36,440 nt of DNA from a virus: IMG/VR virus record IMGVR_UViG_3300021495_000013, positions 1 through 36,440 of that record; one strand, 5' to 3'. Shown here in pieces: positions 635-36,440 of the stretch (within the stretch, counting starts at the first letter, position 1; every line of letters begins with the position of its first letter). The position numbers were made by a program, and so were the translations under genes. Below the pieces are notes generated by a model. It saw nothing but the letters and a program-made list of their open reading frames with translations, did not search any database and was not told where the DNA came from.

Positions 635-719
635 TTTATGAGAGAAAAACTTAGCAGGCTGAGGCTATTTCCAGACTAAGCTACTGGTCCTTGTTTTACA
701 GTTTATGAGAGAAAAACTT
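635..719 (+). repeat. 18-bp direct repeat flanking a 49-bp insert at the terL start
   Basis: TTTATGAGAGAAAAACTT occurs at 635-652 and again at 702-719. The second copy contains the terL start codon (705). The right terminase locus has the sequence only once and lacks the 49 bases between. The first copy therefore makes a decoy start followed by only 13 codons. The arrangement looks like a target-site-type duplication around an inserted tRNA fragment. Confidence 0.75.
650..690 (-). pseudogene. 5' half of a tRNA-Ser(GCU)-like gene
   Basis: Read on the minus strand from 690, the bases fit a tRNA 5' half: acceptor strand GGACCAG, T8 A9, D-arm GCTT with A14, G15, G18 G19 and closing TAGC, base 26 C, anticodon 5' stem TCAGC, and loop C32 T33 GCT A37 A38. 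The anticodon would be GCU (serine). From position 39 the match stops: the next bases are the flanking direct repeat, not the expected GCTGA, and no T-arm (GGTTCRA) is visible nearby. It is a truncated tRNA copy, broken exactly after the anticodon loop. A split-tRNA half is a less likely alternative. Confidence 0.6.
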
Positions 720-1955
720 CTCATTATCATGGACAACCTCTTCCAGCAGATAAAAGGAAGAGGACTTTATGATTATCAAAAAAGATTGTTTCAAAGCAAC
801 AAAAAGTTCAAAATTGTAAACAAAAGCCGACAGGTTGGAATAAGTTATTCATTGGCATGCTGGGGACTGCTAAACGCTCTATTGCTTGACAAAACAGTGT
901 TGATAGTATCACCAAGTGAAAGGCAATCTAAACATGTTATGGATTATGTAAGAGAGTTTTTGAATTATCTTAAAAATGATTTTGAGATAAGATTTCAGGA
1001 GGAGACCAAGCTCAGTTATATCTTTGAAGGTGGCGGAGCGCTTTACTCGCTTCCGAACAACCCAAATACTGTTCGTGGCTTCAAAGCAGATCTGATTATT
1101 ATTGATGAGTTCGCTCATTTCCTAAACAACACAGACAAGGAGATGATAACAGCTATAACACCATCCATCAGCCGTGGTGGTGAGGTAATATTTGTATCCA
1201 CACCATTTGGCACAAAAAACATGTTCTACGAATACTGGCACAATAAGGATGATTATGAACATTTTACAATCAATTATAAGGATTGCCCAGATTTACAGAT
1301 AAACCCTGATGATTTTGATACTCTCACATTTCAACAGGAATATAATAACCAGTTTCTTGAGGATAGTGATGAGAGCGAGTTTCCATTTGAGCTAATAAGG
1401 CAATGTATAGACCCAGATCTCATATATGAGGATTTGCAAAAAAACAAGATATACTTTGCTGGTGCTGATATTGGACGGACAACAGATTTGACGGCATTGG
1501 TGGTTTTTGAAAAACAACAAGACAAATACATCCTGCGTATGGTTAAAACTATGAAAAACACGCCATATATGGAGCAGGAAAACTATTTCACATACCTGTT
1601 AAAAAATTATACTTTTGAACGTTTTACAATCGATGAAACAGGCATTGGCAATATGCTCGCAGAAAACCTACGACGCAGATTTGGTTTTATACAAACTCTT
1701 ATGTTTGATAATAAAAATAAGCAGGAGATGGTTACAAATCTAAAACTACTCATGCAAAATAACAAAATAGTTTTGCCAAATGATGCCATTGTTATCAACA
1801 GCATCCGCATGATAAAACGAAAATACACATCCACAGGATATTTACGTTTTGAGAGCGATAGAAATGAGGAGCTTGGACATGGCGATGTTTTCTGGGCTAT
1901 AGCACTCGCACTCTATAACGCTGAGCAGGAAAAAGCAGGTTTTTGGATAGGATAA
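705..1955 (+). CDS. terL: Terminase large subunit (copy 1)
   Basis: This is the ATPase and nuclease that drives DNA into the prohead. The 416 residues show a Walker A-like SRQVGIS (about 41-47), Walker B LIIIDE (130-135), coupling motif STPFGT (165-170), and an RNase H-fold nuclease with acidic residues in ADIGRTTD (D255), TIDETG (D310) and GHGD (D394). The length is usual for phage TerL. The start at 705 is supported by the aligned right copy. It lies inside the second unit of an 18-base repeat, so an identical decoy start exists 67 bases upstream. It is about 94% identical to the second TerL at 34916, with most changes in the nuclease half. Confidence 0.97.
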   Translation: MREKLLIIMDNLFQQIKGRGLYDYQKRLFQSNKKFKIVNKSRQVGISYSLACWGLLNALLLDKTVLIVSPSERQSKHVMDYVREFLNYLKNDFEIRFQEETKLSYIFEGGGALYSLPNNPNTVRGFKADLIIIDEFAHFLNNTDKEMITAITPSISRGGEVIFVSTPFGTKNMFYEYWHNKDDYEHFTINYKDCPDLQINPDDFDTLTFQQEYNNQFLEDSDESEFPFELIRQCIDPDLIYEDLQKNKIYFAGADIGRTTDLTALVVFEKQQDKYILRMVKTMKNTPYMEQENYFTYLLKNYTFERFTIDETGIGNMLAENLRRRFGFIQTLMFDNKNKQEMVTNLKLLMQNNKIVLPNDAIVINSIRMIKRKYTSTGYLRFESDRNEELGHGDVFWAIALALYNAEQEKAGFWIG

Positions 1956-1991
1956 AAAAACATGGAGAGGAATAAAATTAAAAATATGAAC

Positions 1992-2092
1992 ATAAACGGC
2001 ATAAACGGTATAAACGATTGTTGGTATATTTAAGTCGAATATAATCTTAAATTTTTTAGCTTAAATAAAGAAAAACCGTTTATATCGTTTAT
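1992..2092 (+). promoter_or_regulatory. ATAAACG iterons and matching inverted arm after terL (left copy)
   Basis: Three ATAAACG units (1992, 2001, 2010) are followed about 60 bases later by the complementary arm CGTTTATATCGTTTAT (2077-2092). ATAAACGGTATAAACG (2001-2016) pairs with it over 16 positions with a single G.U. In the right copy (36203-36304) the unit is TGTAAACG and the far arm has changed to match, while the spacer is nearly unchanged. It may be a long hairpin in the transcript between terL and the head genes, or paired protein-binding sites. Confidence 0.6.
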
Positions 2093-2134
2093 ATGGGTTA
2101 TGAAACTTAAATGTTCAGTTAGGAGGGAAAAAAA

Positions 2135-2353
2135 TTGGGAGATTATACCTACTCGTTGAAACATGGAGCATACATCGTATGGGATGGCGATCTTGCAACA
2201 GCAAGGGAGCTAAAAAACAAGACAGATGAGCCAGTATTGGTCTATGATCCAGATAAGGATCGTTTCTACATCTATAAAATCGAGTATGAGAGCAGACCGT
2301 TGAGGATAAAACATGGAGAATTCGCTAAGGGAAAAACTAAAGATACCTACTGA
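2135..2353 (+). CDS. Small conserved protein between terL and portal
   Basis: This is a 72-residue soluble protein of unknown function. The TTG start is set by a good ribosome site (AGGAGGG, 2121-2127). The sequence alternates short beta-like and charged segments (AYIVWDG, PVLVYDPDKDRFYIYKIEY) and has no cysteine or membrane segment. The same gene begins at the right edge of the window (36346) after the second TerL, so it belongs to the terminase-head operon. A small head or packaging accessory protein is possible, but nothing in the sequence proves it. Confidence 0.75.
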   Translation: MGDYTYSLKHGAYIVWDGDLATARELKNKTDEPVLVYDPDKDRFYIYKIEYESRPLRIKHGEFAKGKTKDTY

Positions 2354-5706: not shown

Positions 5707-5710
5707 AATA

Positions 5711-5740
5711 TTTTTTGTTTTCAATAATTAATATAATTGA
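5711..5740 (+). repeat. Dispersed 30-bp repeat, copy 1 (possible promoter/operator)
   Basis: Bases 5711-5740 (a T-run, GTTT, then TCAATAATTAATATAATTGA) recur with one mismatch at 32653-32682, before the structured RNA. The core has inverted ends TCAAT/ATTGA and a TATA-like centre. It sits 18 bases before the start of the next gene. A shared promoter or regulator site is the best guess. Confidence 0.55.
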
Positions 5741-9048: not shown

Positions 9049-9099
9049 AGCTAAAAAATATTTTAAAATATTTTTTTCAAAAATAATATTTCATAACAT

Positions 9100-12966: not shown

Positions 12967-15900
12967 ATGGCTCAAGGGATAGAACCTGTTACACGGACAG
13001 AAATAACACCATCTACTACATGGTCGTGGGTAGATGTAGATGTAAGTAGTTATGTTGATGCTGGGAATACAGCAGGGGTGATACTTGAAATAGAAAACAC
13101 ATCCGATAGTAGTCAAGGAACAATTGGGGTTAGAAAAAATGGATCAACAGATACATTATGTCATAGAATATGGTATACATCTCACACGTTTATAGCAATT
13201 GGCGTGGATGGAAATGATATTTTCGAAGCATATATATCATCAAGCTCAAATATAAACATATATATCGTTGGATATATACCCAGCGAGGCAGGGAGTTTTC
13301 TAACAAACATTAGCAATGTAACACCAACAACATACAATACATATGTAGATGTAGATATTTCCTCGATAACAGGAACAGACACAGCAAAAATAGTCTTTTT
13401 AATAGTTGATGCAGATATATCTTCTACACCACAATATTTTCATGTTAGAGAAAACGGTTCAACATTAGATATAAAAGGAAATATACGTGCAGATTTATCA
13501 TATTTTGGAGCAATCACATCCGTGGATGCAAATGAAATATTTGAAGCATATGTAGACGAGGCAGGAATAGATATATATGTTACAGGTTGGATAAAAACAG
13601 GATATGCTGAGAGCTGGGCTGATCCAAAAGATTACTCAACAGCGACAACAGGAAGCTATGTGGATACAGATGTTAGCGCTGATGTCCCAAGTGGTAGCAA
13701 TGGTGTCCTTGCATATATGAAAAACGAATATACACAGGCATATGGTATAAGAAAAAATGGGGAAACATATGACAACTATTATGATGCAGCTACTCCAGGA
13801 TATCTTTTTTGTGCAGTAGATGCTAATAGGATACTTGAGCAGAAAATAGAAACAACATTTCTTGATTTATATATATTTGGTTATGTAACAACAGCTGGTG
13901 TTGCATATACACAAAATATTACTGAGATAATAGGCTTGGCTATTTCAAATTTTCTTAATCCACAAATTGTTAGAAAAGAATTTCTCACACTTGATGATTT
14001 TAGATTACTTACAACATCATTATTTAGACAAGAGTTATTAGGATTAATTGATAGTTCAAGTTATACTAAAATAATGCCTCAAGAAATCTCTGAAAACCTT
14101 GCAATCATTGACAGCAAAACCAGGCAGATAAATAAAAACATAACACAGACAATAAACCTCATAGACACATGCAGTAAAACCATATCAAAGACAACCGATG
14201 AGCTAATAGAACTTCTGGATAATGTTTTTAAAACACCAACAATACAAATCAGTGAAAACCTTGCAATCACAGAACAAATAATAAACAAAATATCTATTCT
14301 AAAATCTGAAATAATCAATTTAAAAGACAACTACATAAAAACAACATATAAAACAATAACAGAGCTATTAAACCTTCTTGATAGCATTATAAAAACAACA
14401 TTTATCCTAAAAACAGAGGATATAGGATTAACCGATACAGTCACAGCTCTTAAAAGCATCACACAACCAGAAATACTCAGTTTGCTTGATAAAAAAACAT
14501 TACAACCGATACTGTTAAAAATAGAAAAACTTGGACTATATGATACTATTTTGAAAACAACAGCTTTTGAAAAAACAGACACAATAGGTTTGTCTGATCA
14601 AAAACAGCTTACAATGTCAAAAGAAACACTTGAACAGATAAAAATCCTGGAAAACACCTATAACCAACCAGGGAAGACAATAGAGGAAAAAATAGATATT
14701 ATAACACAAATCATTAGAGATATACTTATAGAACAAGTTGAAAAAATAGAAATTGATGATAATGTTTATAAGACAGTTTCACAAACCCTAACCGAGATAT
14801 TTACTATTGTTGAACAAATCTCTATAACAACAGGACTAACCAAAAGAGAAATACTTGGTATTGTTGATAGTTTGTTGAAAAAACCTGATAAGGTAGATGT
14901 TGAAAAACTTGGGTTGAAAGATACTATTTTTAAAGATGTTGTGAGAATATTCACAGAATTAATAGACCTGGTTGACACGGTTGAAAAGGTTAAACATGCC
15001 ACAAAAATATTCATAGAAACAGTTGGACTTGTTGATAGTTATATCAAACAAAAACAGATAACCAAGATGGAAATACTCAGCATGATTGACAGCATTAGAC
15101 GGGATATAACACTTGACAGATTTGAAATACTTAGCCTGGTTGACAGCAAAGTTTTTGACTATACAAAAACCCTAAATGAAATCCTCAACATTATAGATGG
15201 TGTTGAGACACAGGCGCAGCTGCTTAAAACAGAAAAAATAGAACTAAAAGATTATTACTATAACACACCACAACTTATACGGCTTGAGATAATTGGTATA
15301 ATAGACAGTATTCTTAAAACGATAGATCTTGAAAAAACCGATATACTTGGACTTCTTGATACACAAGAACTAACTCCCATCTTGTTGTTGGAGGAGAAAC
15401 TCATGGTGCTTGAAAACATCTATAATCAGCCTGGGAAAACAGTTGAGGAGAAAATAGCATTCACCACCGAGATTATAAAAAACATTTTTCTGGAAAAATT
15501 TGAAAAAATAGGATTAGAAGAAAACATCTACAAAACATTGTATCAAGTATTATGTGAGACTCTCGCAGTTGTAGAGGTTGTTTCAAAAAAGACAGGACTA
15601 ACCAAGAAAGAAATAATAGGTATTGTTGAAGATGTGTTTAAACAGCTTGGCAAGACAGAGATGGAAAAAATCGGTTTGCTTGATACTGTTATCAAATATG
15701 CTGTATTGTTAAAAACAATTGATGAAACCATTGAGTTAGAAGAAACAGTTAATGTTATAAAATCAATAATGCAGATTGAAAAACTATCACTACTCGAACA
15801 GATTGTTAAAAAAACAAGCCTAACAAAAGAAGAGAAACTTGCACTGATTGATACCATTCATAGAAGAATAAATATTCTCAGGCAGGTTATGCTTGAAACA

Positions 15901-16044
15901 CTAAAAACCACGATGGATATTGAGGTAGAGGATGAGACCGCTATGGTTGAAGAGGAAGACAAGGATATAACCATTGATGAGGAGGATAAAGATTTTGTTA
16001 TAGAGGAGCATGATAAGGATAAAAATGTTGAGGTGCAACCATAA
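12967..16044 (+). CDS. Giant repeat fibre-like protein
   Basis: This is the largest gene in the window (1025 residues). Residues 1-310 hold three tandem beta domains of about 100 residues, each with YVDVDVS, a VRKNGS or IRKNGE turn, and VDANxIFEAYI...IYIxGYI. Residues of about 315-970 are about 25 imperfect repeats with the core K-x-E-x-(L/I)-x-L-x-D-(S/T)-x-x-K. A longer unit of about 110 residues is duplicated (at about 14610-14950 and 15380-15710; both contain YNQPGKT and TGLTK). The C-terminus is strongly acidic. A surface fibre or tail appendage is likely. It starts after GGTTGATAAT. Confidence 0.8.
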   Translation: MAQGIEPVTRTEITPSTTWSWVDVDVSSYVDAGNTAGVILEIENTSDSSQGTIGVRKNGSTDTLCHRIWYTSHTFIAIGVDGNDIFEAYISSSSNINIYIVGYIPSEAGSFLTNISNVTPTTYNTYVDVDISSITGTDTAKIVFLIVDADISSTPQYFHVRENGSTLDIKGNIRADLSYFGAITSVDANEIFEAYVDEAGIDIYVTGWIKTGYAESWADPKDYSTATTGSYVDTDVSADVPSGSNGVLAYMKNEYTQAYGIRKNGETYDNYYDAATPGYLFCAVDANRILEQKIETTFLDLYIFGYVTTAGVAYTQNITEIIGLAISNFLNPQIVRKEFLTLDDFRLLTTSLFRQELLGLIDSSSYTKIMPQEISENLAIIDSKTRQINKNITQTINLIDTCSKTISKTTDELIELLDNVFKTPTIQISENLAITEQIINKISILKSEIINLKDNYIKTTYKTITELLNLLDSIIKTTFILKTEDIGLTDTVTALKSITQPEILSLLDKKTLQPILLKIEKLGLYDTILKTTAFEKTDTIGLSDQKQLTMSKETLEQIKILENTYNQPGKTIEEKIDIITQIIRDILIEQVEKIEIDDNVYKTVSQTLTEIFTIVEQISITTGLTKREILGIVDSLLKKPDKVDVEKLGLKDTIFKDVVRIFTELIDLVDTVEKVKHATKIFIETVGLVDSYIKQKQITKMEILSMIDSIRRDITLDRFEILSLVDSKVFDYTKTLNEILNIIDGVETQAQLLKTEKIELKDYYYNTPQLIRLEIIGIIDSILKTIDLEKTDILGLLDTQELTPILLLEEKLMVLENIYNQPGKTVEEKIAFTTEIIKNIFLEKFEKIGLEENIYKTLYQVLCETLAVVEVVSKKTGLTKKEIIGIVEDVFKQLGKTEMEKIGLLDTVIKYAVLLKTIDETIELEETVNVIKSIMQIEKLSLLEQIVKKTSLTKEEKLALIDTIHRRINILRQVMLETLKTTMDIEVEDETAMVEEEDKDITIDEEDKDFVIEEHDKDKNVEVQP

Positions 16045-22664: not shown

Positions 22665-22813
22665 TTTTGTCACTGATGTGATAATAATTGTCTTTTTTCT
22701 AAAAATTTTGTCCCTATGGTGATAGTATTTTTTCAAAATTTTGTCATTGTAATGATAATATTTTCTCAAAAATTTGCACCAAAGTTCACAATTTTGTTAA
22801 CTATGGTGTATAT
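22665..22813. repeat. Four dyad repeats (iterons), 22-bp unit
   Basis: Copies start at 22665, 22706, 22739 and 22792, each beginning TTTTGTCA or close and ending GTGATAATA or close. The inner parts are dyads, for example TCAC-TGAT-GTGA in the first and TCATT-GT-AATGA in the third; the fourth is the most diverged. Centre-to-centre spacing is 41, 33 and 53 bases. Such iterated dyads are bound by repressors or replication initiators. No other gene is credible within this stretch. Confidence 0.6.
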
Positions 22814-22934
22814 GATTGAGAAAAATGTATGTAACTATCTACAATGGTATAAAAAGGTTACTTACACATTTTTGAGTAGTTTCAACCATCCCCCTCTTCT
22901 TTTTTTATATGTTTTAAACATTTTTGTTTTTTTA

Positions 22935-23305: not shown

Positions 23306-23632
23306 TTACACCTCCTCTGTTTTTTCTTTTGATTTTTTTCTTTTTTTATAAAACCCATAAACAAACATGATAATACCAGCAACTGCGATAGCATAGCTAA
23401 AAAAGAAAAACAAAGCTATAATATTCAACGTGTTTTCCAGACTAACCATTTTATCACCCATTACATCAAGTTTTTGAAGCGCCTCATAACTACTATAATA
23501 TTTTAGATAACCTAACTCTGTCCTTAGATGTTCAATTTCATTTAAGACATTAAGCGATGCAACATGTGAAGATACAAATATTATTATAGCTACTAATATT
23601 AGGCATATTCCTATCTTTTGATTTTTATTCAT
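23306..23632 (-). CDS. Two-span membrane protein
   Basis: This 108-residue protein has a first span (GICLILVAIIIFVSSHVA), an external or internal loop with a coiled coil (IEHLRTELGYLKYYSSYEAL...), a second span (IIALFFFFSYAIAVAGIIMFVYGF) and a basic tail (KKRKKSKEKTEEV). It overlaps the upstream winged-helix gene by eight bases, so they are co-translated. The arrangement resembles lysogeny or immunity modules in which a regulator is made with a membrane partner. No family is recognised. Confidence 0.75.
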   Translation of the reverse strand: MNKNQKIGICLILVAIIIFVSSHVASLNVLNEIEHLRTELGYLKYYSSYEALQKLDVMGDKMVSLENTLNIIALFFFFSYAIAVAGIIMFVYGFYKKRKKSKEKTEEV

Positions 23633-23918
23633 CTTCTTCTCCTTCTAAAATTTTTTTAATTTCTTTTATATGCTCTGCTATTTCTATTCCCTCTGCTGTG
23701 AGACTTAGAAGTCTTGCATTACTTCCTTTGATTTTTCTTTCTTTAACAATTTTTAATTCTTTTAATGTGTTTATTACACGATCCATTGTTTGATTGTTTA
23801 TTTTCAGATCCATGTAGATTTTTGAAAAAATTGTTTCACCATGTTTTTGCAAATACAAGATTGTTATCAAAATTCGTCTTTGATTATCTAATTTTGAGAT
23901 TTTTTCGCTTATTTTCAT
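23625..23918 (-). CDS. Winged-helix transcription regulator
   Basis: This 97-residue protein fits a MarR/ArsR-like winged helix: RRILITILYLQKHGETIFSKIYMDLKINNQTMDRVINTLKELKIVKERKIKGSNARLLSLTAEGIEIAEHI. The recognition helix is around NNQTMDRVINTLKEL, and the wing is KIKGSNARLLSLT. It heads a three-gene minus-strand operon with two membrane or zinc proteins. The divergent region upstream has paired operators (23990-24071), so autoregulation is likely. A role in maintaining the integrated or carrier state is inferred. Confidence 0.8.
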   Translation of the reverse strand: MKISEKISKLDNQRRILITILYLQKHGETIFSKIYMDLKINNQTMDRVINTLKELKIVKERKIKGSNARLLSLTAEGIEIAEHIKEIKKILEGEEDE

Positions 23919-23989
23919 GTGGTTTCCTAATGTTTTGTATTTATTTAAAAGTATTTAAATGTTTTTAATAAACTTTAAATAATAAACAC

Positions 23990-24071
23990 TTAACATTTAG
24001 TGATAAATAGTAAATTTTAAATACTACTTATTATATATGTTTTAATGTTTAGCATTAAGTGCTAAATAGTA
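23990..24071. promoter_or_regulatory. Paired operators in a divergent promoter
   Basis: A 23-base direct repeat lies at 23990-24012 and 24049-24071, with three mismatches (TTA-x-CATT-x-AGTG-x-TAAATAGTA). The right copy includes a perfect dyad TTAGCA-TTAAG-TGCTAA, and the left has CACTTAACATTTAGTG. Between them is a TATA-like TTATATAT (24031-24038) for the rightward gene at 24084. For the leftward regulator a TTTAAATA box lies near 23950. Repression of both sides by the winged-helix protein is a natural model. Confidence 0.65.
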
Positions 24072-32259: not shown

Positions 32260-32291
32260 AAAAAACAGAGTGGGATGGGGTGCACAGGGTT

Positions 32292-32645
32292 TTGAAAAAA
32301 ACAAGATGCATGTATTGTAAAAAAGAGATAATTAATAAACGTGGACGTCCGCGGAAATATTGCAAGACATGTTACAAGTTTCATAGACGGCAGTATCTTG
32401 CAAGATATAGACTCAGGTATCGGTTGCATAAGCCCAGATCTGCATGGGCGACAAGGGAATATTATCAATTCTATAAATTTTTATTAACACTTCCAATTGA
32501 GGATTTACAAGTGCTATTTTTGAAACGTAAAAAAGAATGTAAATACGCTATGGGTGATGATCTACGAAAACTTAGGACGGAGATGAGTATTATTCGCGAT
32601 GTTGTAGAGCTGCTTAAAATACAACATCAGGATCAAAAAAATTAG
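32292..32645 (+). CDS. Zinc-finger, Arg-rich protein
   Basis: TTG 32292 is preferred to GTG 32280, since GGGATGGGGTG then lies at ribosome-site distance. The 117 residues start KKTRCMYCKKEIINKRGRPRKYCKTCYKFHRRQYLARYRLRYRLHKPR: a CxxC-x-CxxC finger joined to a strongly basic stretch. The C-terminal half is helical and acidic. It may bind DNA or RNA. It is the last gene before the structured RNA and so could interact with it; this is a guess. Confidence 0.65.
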   Translation: MKKTRCMYCKKEIINKRGRPRKYCKTCYKFHRRQYLARYRLRYRLHKPRSAWATREYYQFYKFLLTLPIEDLQVLFLKRKKECKYAMGDDLRKLRTEMSIIRDVVELLKIQHQDQKN

Positions 32646-32652
32646 GGTTGGA

Positions 32653-32682
32653 TTTTTTGTTTTCAATAATTAATATGATTGA
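32653..32682 (+). repeat. Dispersed 30-bp repeat, copy 2
   Basis: This copy matches 5711-5740 except for one base. It contains TCAATAATTAATATGATTGA (32663-32682). Its TATA-like centre is about 25-30 bases before 32701, where the folded RNA begins. It is a plausible promoter for the RNA and the downstream genes. Confidence 0.55.
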
Positions 32683-32700
32683 AAAAATAATGTTAACTTG

Positions 32701-32909
32701 TAGGGTGCGCCGATAGCTATGGGCGGGGGCTTGGCTTTCTCCGAAGCCAGGCAGGTGGGAAAAACATAACTATGCCTATACAGGGGATAAGAGGAATTTC
32801 AGCAAATTATGGTTAAGATGCCTGACAAAAAAATTTTTTTAGTATGATGGCATCCATAGCAATTGTGCAAGAATAACATTTTCTTCTTTTTTCTCTTATC
32901 CCCTGGGGT
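32701..32909 (+). ncRNA. Structured RNA of unknown class (orphan)
   Basis: This 209-base stretch has no credible gene but forms well-matched helices. TATGGGC (32718-32724) pairs with GCCTATA (32774-32780), enclosing hairpin GCTTGGCTT/AAGCCAGGC (32729-32737, 32744-32752). CAGGGGATAAGAG (32781-32793) pairs perfectly with CTCTTATCCCCTG (32893-32905) directly next to the first helix. Within that arm, GATGCC/GGCATC (32817-32822, 32849-32854) and TATG/CATA form an inner stem. The 3' arm can alternatively form CCCC-TG-GGGT, as in a switch. A promoter-like repeat is upstream, and a small zinc gene starts 17 bases after. It could be a leader (riboswitch-like) or a free RNA. Confidence 0.6.
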
Positions 32910-32925
32910 AAAACAGAGGATTGAT

Positions 32926-33030
32926 ATGCACAAGACCTGCCCATGTTGTAAAAGATATGTTCGTGTTACAAAGAAGAGGCATATCTGTAAATGTGGTTAT
33001 GATTTCAAAATCTGTTTTGATGAGCTATGA
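32926..33030 (+). CDS. Tiny zinc ribbon protein
   Basis: This 34-residue protein (MHKTCPCCKRYVRVTKKRHI then CKCGYDFKIC) has a CPCC and CKCG pair that would make one zinc ribbon. CAGAGGATTG precedes the ATG, and its stop overlaps the methyltransferase start (ATGA). Its place right after the structured RNA suggests that its translation could be governed by the RNA. No family was recognised beyond the ribbon. Confidence 0.7.
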   Translation: MHKTCPCCKRYVRVTKKRHICKCGYDFKICFDEL

Positions 33031-34274
33031 AAATTGAAAAGAAGAAAATATCTGAGCTTAAACCTGCACCTTATAATCCCAGAGTTGATATTAAGGAGAA
33101 CAAATACTTTTATGAGAAACTCTATCGTAGTATAAAACAGTTTGGACTCGTTGAGCCAATAGTGTGGAATAAGCGGACTGGTCATGTTGTCGGTGGAAAT
33201 CAGCGGTTGCAAATCCTCAGGGATGAGGGTGTTGAAGAGGTTGATGTTGTAGTTGTTGATCTTCCGCTTGAGGAGGAAAAAGCTCTCAATATTGCATTGA
33301 ATAAGATTGTTGGGGATTGGGATAGGGAGAAACTCGCCAGTGTTCTCAATGAGTTGAATGATATTGATGATTTTCTTATACAGCTCAGTGGTTTTGATGA
33401 AAAAGAACTAAACAGTATCATAGACAGTTATAGAGAAGTTGAGGAGGATGATTTTGACGTAGACGCCGCCTTGGAACATGAACCAAAATACAAAATAAAA
33501 AGAGGAGATGTCTATCAGCTTGGTAATCATAGGCTTATGTGTGGTGATGCAACCAACCCTGATGATGTTAGTAGGTTGATGGATGGAAAAAAAGCAGATA
33601 TGGTATTTACTTCCCCACCCAATAGGGTGGGGAAACAATATGAGTATCAAAAAAGTATAGAAGAAATAAACGAATTTATCAAAAACACATGTATAAATCT
33701 TAAAAACTCAGTTAAGAAAGATTTTTCAAGGATTATCATAAACACATGGACTGGAAACGGCAAACAATATACTGGAAAAGTGGAGACCTTGCTATTAATC
33801 GATAAATGGATTTATTATCTCAAACCAGAATGGTTGATGCGTCATCTAAGATTTTGGATAAAAACAGGAGGATTACCAGCGCCAATACCACCAAAGAATG
33901 ACATGATAGATCAGCATTGTGAGTTTATTGCAACGTTCTATAATATTTATGGAGAACAAAGAGGACAAAACAGAATAAATGAAAAATGGGTGTTACAAGG
34001 TTTTATAGATGATATAAAAGGAGAAGCATCATCTGAGGGGCATTGCGCTGCTTTTCCAGTTGAATTACCCTCTCGTTTCATTAGATTATATAGTTTAGAG
34101 AAAGAAATTATTTTAGATCCCTTTGGCGGCTCAGGCACTACTCTTATCGCCTGTGAACAACTCAACCGAATATGTTACATGATGGAAATCGACCCTGTCT
34201 ATTGTAGTGTGATAATTGAGAGATGGGAGAAACTAACTGGTAAAAAAGCAGAGTATGTTGGTAATTATGGCTAA
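33027..34274 (+). CDS. ParB-domain / DNA methyltransferase fusion
   Basis: The 415 residues have an N-terminal ParB-like domain (LKPAPYNPRVD, then VVGGNQRLQILRDEG at 54-69), a linker, and an amino-methyltransferase with beta-class motif order: motif IV TSPPN (195-199) and, near the C-terminus, motif I DPFGGSGTT (364-372). The aromatic residue of motif IV (SPPY or DPPY) is replaced or deleted, and a perfect 10-bp palindrome lies on this spot. Such fusions commonly precede terminase genes in tailed viruses. The protein may methylate virus DNA against restriction, if active. Confidence 0.88.
   Translation: MKIEKKKISELKPAPYNPRVDIKENKYFYEKLYRSIKQFGLVEPIVWNKRTGHVVGGNQRLQILRDEGVEEVDVVVVDLPLEEEKALNIALNKIVGDWDREKLASVLNELNDIDDFLIQLSGFDEKELNSIIDSYREVEEDDFDVDAALEHEPKYKIKRGDVYQLGNHRLMCGDATNPDDVSRLMDGKKADMVFTSPPNRVGKQYEYQKSIEEINEFIKNTCINLKNSVKKDFSRIIINTWTGNGKQYTGKVETLLLIDKWIYYLKPEWLMRHLRFWIKTGGLPAPIPPKNDMIDQHCEFIATFYNIYGEQRGQNRINEKWVLQGFIDDIKGEASSEGHCAAFPVELPSRFIRLYSLEKEIILDPFGGSGTTLIACEQLNRICYMMEIDPVYCSVIIERWEKLTGKKAEYVGNYG
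33611..33634. repeat. Perfect palindrome in the methyltransferase motif
   Basis: TTCCCCACCC (33611-33620) and GGGTGGGGAA (33625-33634) are perfect complements with loop AATA. The hairpin sits across the codons for the catalytic motif IV (S-P-P-N). No matching hairpin was seen elsewhere. It might be an inserted element or a regulatory RNA hairpin, or an expansion error. Confidence 0.7.
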
Positions 34275-34692
34275 AAGAGGACGTCATTCAAAACTCACAG
34301 ATGAACTACTTACAAAAATATGTAAATATATAGAGGCTGGAAACTATGCAAAAACCGCCTGTTTAGCCTGTGGTATAAGCGAGGTTACATTCTATGATTG
34401 GATTAAAAAAGGAGAACAGGCAATAAATGAAGGAAAAGATAACAAATATACTAAATTTCTTAAGTCAATCAAAGAAGCCCGTGCAAAAGCAGAAATCAGA
34501 AATGTAGCAATTATTAACAAGGCAGCGACAGATAATGCAAAACATGCTGAATGGTGGCTTGAAAGAACAAACCCAGAATATTGGGGTAGAAAGGATGAGT
34601 TTCATCTTGAGCATTCCGGTAAGATTGATATAGAATTGTTTAAAAAATATTTACAGGAGAATAAAAAATATGAGAAACAGAAGGAGAAATAA
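34267..34692 (+). CDS. terS: Terminase small subunit, helix-turn-helix type (variant B)
   Basis: The 141-residue protein has a classic TerS N-terminus: KRGRHSKLTDELLTKICKYIEAGNYAKTACLACGISEVTFYDWIKKGEQ (HTH with the W in YDWIKKG), a middle helix (EARAKAEIRNVAIINKAA), WWLERTNPEYWG, and the tail EHSGKIDIELFKKYL shared with the Cys-rich variant at 46-516. It overlaps the methyltransferase by eight bases; ATG 34267 is chosen over TTG 34255. TerS recognises the packaging site. Confidence 0.88.
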   Translation: MAKRGRHSKLTDELLTKICKYIEAGNYAKTACLACGISEVTFYDWIKKGEQAINEGKDNKYTKFLKSIKEARAKAEIRNVAIINKAATDNAKHAEWWLERTNPEYWGRKDEFHLEHSGKIDIELFKKYLQENKKYEKQKEK

Positions 34693-34789: not shown

Positions 34790-34843
34790 TCCGTGTATTA
34801 TGAATTGGATGCTTATAACACAGAATAGGGTTTATATTGATAG

Positions 34844-34861
34844 TTTAACAGATCTGTTAAA
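34844..34861 (+). promoter_or_regulatory. Perfect 18-bp palindrome between terS and terL, right copy
   Basis: TTTAACAGATCTGTTAAA is a perfect palindrome, matching the left locus at 566-583 except for one base. A second dyad (AAAACAACAC and GTGTTTT) follows as in the left. It may be a packaging-site component or RNA hairpin. Confidence 0.45.
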
Positions 34862-34915
34862 ACTTTCAAAACAACACAGGAATAGTGTTTTGACACATTC
34901 TCTGTTTTATAGTTT

Positions 34916-36166
34916 ATGAGAGAAAAACTTCTCATTATTATGGATAACCTCTTCCAGCAGATAAAAGGAAGAGGTCTTTATGATTATCAGAAAAGATTGT
35001 TTCAAAGCAACAAAAAGTTCAAAATTGTAAACAAAAGCCGACAGGTAGGAATAAGCTATGCTCTCGCATGCTGGGGATTGTTAAATGCTCTACTTCTTGA
35101 TAAGACAGTATTAATAGTATCCCCATCTGAACGTCAATCCAAGCATGTTATGGACTATGTAAGAGAGTTTTTGAACTATCTTAAAAATGATTTTGAGATA
35201 AGATTCCAGGAGGAGACCAAGCTCAGTTATATCTTCGAAGGCGGCGGTGCACTCTATTCGCTTCCGAACAACCCAAATACTGTTCGTGGTTTCAAAGCAG
35301 ATCTGATTATTATCGATGAGTTCGCTCATTTCCTAAACAACACAGACAAGGAGATGATAACAGCTATAACACCAAGTATTTCTCGTGGCGGTGAGGTAAT
35401 ATTTGTATCCACGCCATTTGGCACAAAAAACATGTTCTACGAATACTGGCATAACAAAAAAGATTACGAGCATTTCACAATCAACTATAAGGATTGCCCA
35501 GATTTACAGATAAACCCAGATGATTTTGATGATCTCACATTTCAACAAGAATATAACAACCAGTTTCTTGAGGATAGCGATGAGAGCGAGTTTCCATTCG
35601 ATTTGATAAGACAATGTATAAACCCAGATCTCATATATGAGGATTTGCAAAAAAATAAGATATACTTTGCTGGTGCTGATATTGGGCGGACAACAGATTT
35701 GACGGCATTGGTGGTTTTTGAAAAACAACAAAATAAATATGTTCTGCGTATGGTTAAAACTATGAAAAACACGCCCTATGTGGAGCAGGAAAAATATTTC
35801 ACATACTTGCTCAGAAATTATACTTTTGAACAGTTTATGATTGATGAGACAGGCATTGGCAACATGCTCGCAGAGAACCTACGACGCAGATTTGGTTTTA
35901 TACAAACCATCACGTTCAACAATGAGAATAAGCAGAAAATGGTTACAAACTTGAAACTGCTCATGCAGAAAAACCGGGTAATGTTGCCGAATGATGCCAT
36001 TGTTATCAACAGCATCCGCATGATAAAACGAAAATATACATCGACAGGATATCTCAAGTTTGAAAGTGATCGTGATAGTGAGCTTGGACATGGCGATGTT
36101 TTCTGGGCGATGGCACTCGCACTATACAACGTTGAGCAGGAAAAAGCAGGTTTTTGGATAGGATAA
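34916..36166 (+). CDS. terL: Terminase large subunit (copy 2)
   Basis: This 416-residue ATPase/nuclease has all the motifs of copy 1, at the same residues. It differs at about 26 positions, for example S49 to A, and clusters such as TLMFDNKNKQEM against TITFNNENKQKM. Only one difference lies in the first 180 residues. Upstream, a single TTTATGAGAGAAAAACTT is found with no tRNA-like insert. The ATG is at 34916. With TerS variant B and the methyltransferase upstream it forms the packaging operon. Confidence 0.97.
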   Translation: MREKLLIIMDNLFQQIKGRGLYDYQKRLFQSNKKFKIVNKSRQVGISYALACWGLLNALLLDKTVLIVSPSERQSKHVMDYVREFLNYLKNDFEIRFQEETKLSYIFEGGGALYSLPNNPNTVRGFKADLIIIDEFAHFLNNTDKEMITAITPSISRGGEVIFVSTPFGTKNMFYEYWHNKKDYEHFTINYKDCPDLQINPDDFDDLTFQQEYNNQFLEDSDESEFPFDLIRQCINPDLIYEDLQKNKIYFAGADIGRTTDLTALVVFEKQQNKYVLRMVKTMKNTPYVEQEKYFTYLLRNYTFEQFMIDETGIGNMLAENLRRRFGFIQTITFNNENKQKMVTNLKLLMQKNRVMLPNDAIVINSIRMIKRKYTSTGYLKFESDRDSELGHGDVFWAMALALYNVEQEKAGFWIG

Positions 36167-36202
36167 AAAAACATGGAGAGGAATAAAATTAAAAATATGA
36201 GT

Positions 36203-36304
36203 GTAAACGGTGTAAACCGTGTAAACGGTTGTTGGTATATTTAAGTCGAATATAATCTTAAATTTTTTAGCTTAAATAAAGAAAAACCGTTTACATCGTT
36301 TACA
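36203..36304 (+). promoter_or_regulatory. TGTAAACG iterons and inverted arm after terL (right copy)
   Basis: TGTAAACCGTGTAAACGG (36211-36228), preceded by one more GTAAACGG unit, faces CCGTTTACATCGTTTACA (36287-36304) across a spacer almost identical to the left copy. The arms differ from those of the left copy (A to G on one side, T to C on the other), so pairing is kept apart from a two-base central mismatch. Confidence 0.6.
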
Positions 36305-36345
36305 GGGGTTACAAAACTTAAATGTTCAGTTAGGAGGGAAAAAAA

Positions 36346-36440
36346 TTGGGAGATTATACCTACTCGTTGAAACATGGAGCATACATCGTATGGGATGGCG
36401 ATCTTGCAACAGCAAGGGAGCTAAAAAACAAGACAGATGA
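36346..36440 (+). CDS. Small conserved protein, partial (window edge)
   Basis: This is the second copy of the gene at 2135. It starts at TTG 36346 after AGGAGGG and reads MGDYTYSLKHGAYIVWDGDL... to the window end. The visible 31 residues are identical to the left copy. It shows that the duplication extends beyond the window. Confidence 0.8.
   Translation, partial: MGDYTYSLKHGAYIVWDGDLATARELKNKTD

Follow-up and report, generated by a model that had tools for sequence, protein, structure and literature searches.

The non-coding gap upstream of the packaging genes of the viral contig analysed here holds a folded structure that is genuine, orphan and moderately significant, in a suggestive place. 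An operon-controlling leader is the most economical reading of this orphan element. Our tentative reading, in which our confidence is somewhat short of even, is that an archaeal tailed virus has here a structured 5′ leader acting in cis on its packaging/late operon. All coordinates refer to the window, which is the whole 36,440 bp viral contig record.

The gap (32646–32925, 280 bp) has a zinc-binding ORF on one side and the packaging series on the other, and no notable ORF runs across its + strand. It lies directly upstream of the packaging operon and on the same strand, which is the position of a leader or attenuator. A search for relatives of the neighbouring ORF 32280–32645 found none. The downstream genes are the following.

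32926–33030, + strand: 34-residue zinc ribbon-like ORF heading the downstream series (CPCC...CKC motif read directly)
33027–34274, + strand: ParB_N + N6_N4 DNA methyltransferase (profile matches)
34255–34692, + strand: terminase small subunit, variant B (phrog_4102, E 3.6e-37)
34916–36166, + strand: terminase large subunit, variant B (profile matches)

The order zinc ribbon–methyltransferase–TerS–TerL, reported in an earlier note on this DNA, was confirmed. A profile search of the 34-residue ORF gave no match, and its zinc-ribbon assignment comes from the sequence only. The elements of the gap itself are listed below.

32652–32682, + strand: 31 bp element preceding the structured region, with a second copy at 5710–5740; candidate promoter or regulator site
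32701–32780, + strand: GC-rich 5′ domain with a hairpin at 32708–32725 and a 10 bp hairpin at 32729–32752 (folding)
32781–32796, + strand: long closing stem, 5′ arm; 16 pairs in total, 13 of them in the perfect run (repeat scan, pair probabilities)
32802–32868, + strand: inner imperfect hairpin, GATGCC/GGCATC, with a central A7T7 (folding)
32879–32897, + strand: U-rich tract TTTTCTTCTTTTTTCTCTT, the longest T-rich pyrimidine tract, putatively terminator-like for an archaeal host
32890–32905, + strand: long closing stem, 3′ arm (repeat scan, pair probabilities)

Folding of the 209 nt span 32701–32909 gave −67.0 kcal/mol (z = −2.79), a value equalled by one of 200 shuffled sequences. The span ranked third of 1450 windows by GC-corrected folding energy, the correction being a regression of folding energy on GC content across the contig. 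The signal is carried by the 131 nt piece 32779–32909 (z = −4.53, none of 200 shuffles as good), which was picked only after the fold had been seen. Of the compact multi-helix structure claimed in the earlier note, this piece stood up and 32701–32780, which folded at shuffle level (z = −0.43), did not. The claimed perfect 13 bp long-range stem is present as an inverted repeat (32781–32793/32893–32905). It lengthens to 16 pairs with one G–U and two A–U pairs. Among perfect repeats whose arms lie within 250 bp of each other, none in the 36 kb is longer, and two others also reach 13 bp. In the 5′ domain, the hairpin at 32729–32752 has pair probabilities of 0.78–1.0. The GC-richest 60-mer of the window falls within 32701–32780 (67% versus 36%), and its GC content was matched in 0.5% of first-order simulated sequences. 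In AT-rich genomes, long gaps with a high GC content are enriched in structured RNAs and have served to locate them (PMC2704228).

An unselected fold arising by chance in an ordinary gap, for example as recombination debris at the terS locus, is improbable in our judgement. About 0.2 perfect 13 bp repeats at such a spacing are expected in a window of this size, as estimated from base composition, and the two further repeats, the lack of conservation of the element in the relatives examined and the recombining terS locus are all in keeping with such an origin. Set against this, none of the 200 shuffles matched the fold of 32779–32909, though the piece was chosen after the fold had been seen, and the fold coincides with the GC peak as well as with the longest + strand T-rich tract.

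The minus strand of the 131 nt palindrome folds nearly as well (z = −4.03), so that the fold alone is no proof of an RNA and a function as DNA is possible. The element might then be a packaging site (pac/cos) or a palindrome bound by a regulator where the packaging/head module begins, a reading that we consider unlikely but deserving of serious weight. Folding on both strands, the A7T7 centre and the palindromic CCCCTGGGG at the edge of the long palindrome would suit such a site, as would the other long imperfect palindromes in gaps (36202–36313, 2001–2092 and 22761–22824). Gaps immediately ahead of terS are also the classical location of cos and pac sites. However, the contig continues through the site, and a DNA element leaves the GC-rich 5′ hairpin and the U-tract unexplained. 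A MITE or other mobile element was rejected: the flanks are TATA and GGGT with no target-site duplication, there is no second copy in the window, and a search of viral contigs with the stem-pair pattern found no related stretch.

The refolding of the 3′ arm into CCCC-TG-GGGT, put forward earlier as a switch, cannot form because its loop would have only 2 nt. The feasible local alternative at the 3′ side, UUAUCC(CCUG)GGGUAA, is energetically weak (−4.3 kcal/mol), and about 18 kcal/mol is lost if the long stem has its 5′ arm unpaired. Riboswitch-like refolding, which needs two exclusive folds of comparable energy, is not supported by these values. Different folds were seen only for co-transcriptional prefixes that still lack the 3′ arm, and any switch at the long stem would need a strong partner.

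The U-rich tract 32879–32897, which exceeds in length every other T-rich pyrimidine tract found by a scan of the + strand, lies within the hairpin and overlaps the start of its 3′ arm. It stands between most of the fold and the first gene and is a candidate terminator only. Archaeal terminators are U-tracts and do not strictly require a hairpin (PMC8716108). Intergenic T7 runs are found on the + strand of the structural module at 9071, 11771, 12560/12569 and 12939/12947, 1–23 nt past stop codons, and the integrase is closest to the archaeal XerA model, yet falls under the curated cut-off of that model. Both features fit archaeal U-tract termination without hairpins. Hairpin-terminator-like matches over the window were at or below chance. 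T7 runs number 20 on the + strand and 63 on the − strand, a skew taken as a further sign of an archaeal host, although the purine bias of the coding strand would also yield it. Judged from these sequence signs, the contig probably belongs to an uncultured tailed virus with an archaeal host. This host assignment is tentative, since alignment of TerL against genome contigs revealed no provirus and the two exonuclease matches in genome contigs are distant and split between Woesearchaeota and Bacillota.

For a leader, the following course can be proposed. With the duplicated 31 bp element upstream, transcription would begin at about 32700, and the transcript would pass the GC-rich hairpin domain and the long hairpin before reaching the U-rich tract at 32879–32897, where the host polymerase would partly terminate in the archaeal manner. 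Once the polymerase is past the tract, the 3′ arm would pair with 32781–32796 and bury the U-tract, and read-through would yield the mRNA for zinc ribbon–methyltransferase–TerS–TerL. How much packaging protein is made would be set by the balance between termination and read-through, which a viral or host factor might adjust. That the element represents a new class of archaeal-virus leader RNA, with a U-tract terminator embedded in a long stem and a viral antiterminator factor, is decidedly doubtful. Positive support for such exciting readings is limited to position and fold. The element, if RNA at all, belongs to a known kind, the structured viral leader.

An independent small RNA of some 195 nt, running from approximately 32700 to the U-tract and acting in trans by base pairing or protein binding, would gain discrete ends from the GC peak and the U-tract and would be located between two same-strand genes. 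However, a transcript with its 3′ end at 32897 shows no unusual stability (z = −0.66), the best stem requires the 3′ arm beyond the tract, and neither an Rfam family nor relatives were found. We regard this small RNA as quite improbable.

For the leader, a promoter would be expected upstream of the fold, where the earlier note had pointed to a promoter-like repeat. The repeat is real: the 31 bp element, about 20 bp upstream of the structured region, is identical to 5710–5740 at 30 of 31 bases, and no such repeat is expected by chance with up to three mismatches. It contains the palindrome TTTTCAAT-N10-ATTGAAAA at 32660–32685. As a promoter it is no more than suggestive, and inspection showed no σ70 promoter in it. 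Matches to σ70-like promoters over the window were at chance level, and no clear TATA box was seen by eye at the right distance. The copy at 5710–5740 precedes the start of a head-module gene, and the element is a poor promoter candidate because this copy abuts a Shine–Dalgarno-like sequence.

The misfit to known RNA classes asserted in the earlier note was upheld. A search of the window with Rfam 15 gave no match above the gathering score and only sub-threshold matches at E values up to 10, and ARAGORN found 0 tRNA/tmRNA genes. A match to a known family, the outcome named beforehand as contrary to a new RNA, was absent, and resemblances to RNase P, SRP RNA and tRNA noticed by eye were dropped for lack of a model match. 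The suggestion of a packaging RNA fared badly. The case for a motor RNA in the style of φ29 pRNA comes down to position, upstream of the packaging genes. Against it, TerS and TerL of an ordinary type are present, Rfam yielded no pRNA match, and the element is missing from the viruses examined that carry the same kind of TerL. Such an RNA is very hard to credit.

TerL relatives at up to 53% (L082 and L083) and 45% (L084 and L085) were found in viral contigs, and the nearest viruses (TerL ∼53%) lack the element. By blastn it was absent from all of 85 related loci and gave short chance matches only against phages and plasmids. A covariance model (R1), made from this one sequence and able to detect only fairly close homologues, found only the element itself and its own reverse palindrome over 96 sources (∼1.0 Mb), nothing over the whole records of the nearest relatives, and one 17-bit chance-level match over 262 genomes from the phylum of the L139 genome. 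Pattern searches of viral contigs with the stem pair GGGGATAAG-N88–118-CTTATCCCC returned four unrelated stretches. The GC-rich hairpin pattern returned nine unrelated stretches, mostly GC-rich, and the junction 18-mer a single match within a long open frame. The non-coding gap before terS in L083 folded at shuffle level (z = +0.30), and the gaps upstream of related methyltransferases held nothing comparable. Among the sequences examined so far, the element appears to be restricted to this virus.

The terL region occurs at both ends of the window (692–2229 and 34903–36440, 90.4% DNA identity); the TerL copies are 94% identical in protein, and the terS genes upstream of them differ. At its first bases the window encodes DFKKNIITE-stop, which resembles the end of the zinc ribbon (32926–33030, GYDFKICFDEL). 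The contig probably makes a single circuit of a permuted genome of about 33 kb and finishes in another population variant of the terS locus, and if so the gap 32646–32925 would precede both terS variants. The two TerS-like proteins (46–516 and 34255–34692) have only their C-terminal 28 residues in common (79%); their N-terminal parts are unrelated, the left one carrying the cysteine cluster CDETCPLFDRC. It looks as if the DNA-binding part of TerS has been swapped while TerL stayed the same. The location of both variants downstream of the gap, if the left end is read correctly, speaks against a DNA packaging site, as these proteins differ outside the 28 shared residues. A 39-codon ORF (34800–34919, other copy approximately 521–640) overlaps the start of terL; its copies show 93.9% DNA identity, above that of terL itself, and the left one has about 60 bp extra that repeat the terL start.

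Other repeats were seen elsewhere in the window. The imperfect long palindromes after terL (2001–2092 and 36202–36313) have GTAAACGG-type repeats and an AT-rich core and look like operator sites. The gap-rich region 22700–22830 has AT-rich long palindromes, which after GC correction rank with the strongest folds of the window. A winged-helix regulator-like protein (23625–23918, − strand) lies beside AT-rich DNA at 23930–24050 that carries AGTGATAAATAGT/AGTGCTAAATAGT repeats and stretches resembling an archaeal TATA box, and the area 23625–24050 is likely to be an early or lysogeny control region. The 1025-residue ORF 12967–16044 has an internal repeat (14647–14942/15409–15704, 67% identical).

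In weighing the leader, we counted in its favour the fold (z = −4.53) with the GC peak in the non-coding gap that immediately precedes the packaging series, the 31 bp element 20 bp upstream, and the longest + strand T-rich tract at the 3′ side. The T7 runs after stop codons and the XerA-like integrase were added to these, together with the published observations on archaeal termination and on GC-rich gaps (PMC8716108; PMC2704228). Counted against it were the folding of both strands, the 5′ domain at shuffle level, the ordinary stability of an RNA ending at 32897 (z = −0.66), the nearest relatives without the element and the poor fit of the 31 bp element to a promoter.

The λ pR′–6S RNA–tR′ late leader and the HK022 put leader RNAs are bacterial systems with σ70 promoters, hairpin terminators and known antitermination. 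The element would resemble them as a short structured leader running from a promoter-like to a terminator-like site at the head of late genes, where read-through would decide late expression; it differs in having no recognised promoter, an archaeal-type U-run inside the stem and no sequence relation. With φ29 pRNA it shares a link by position between a structured RNA and packaging genes, but φ29 uses the gp16 ATPase without a TerS/TerL pair, whereas this virus has TerS/TerL and no Rfam match. GOLLD and ROOL are likewise structured non-coding RNAs, some of them in phages, but are much larger and bacterial (PMC12286853), and the element has no Rfam match to them. Like the pac/cos sites of tailed phages, the element is a palindromic non-coding gap just upstream of terminase genes; unlike them, it has no recognised array of TerS-binding repeats, and its GC-rich hairpin and U-tract are atypical.

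To our knowledge, the timing of packaging genes in archaeal tailed viruses has been little studied. In a broad genome survey of these viruses the word non-coding is absent (PMC8651126). With a pac/cos site, if that is what it is, a new group of viruses would have a defined packaging signal. A real leader, if true, would be a concrete test case for packaging-gene timing in archaeal tailed viruses, and its predicted 3′ ends, confined to one 19 nt tract, would be easy to check in metatranscriptomes.
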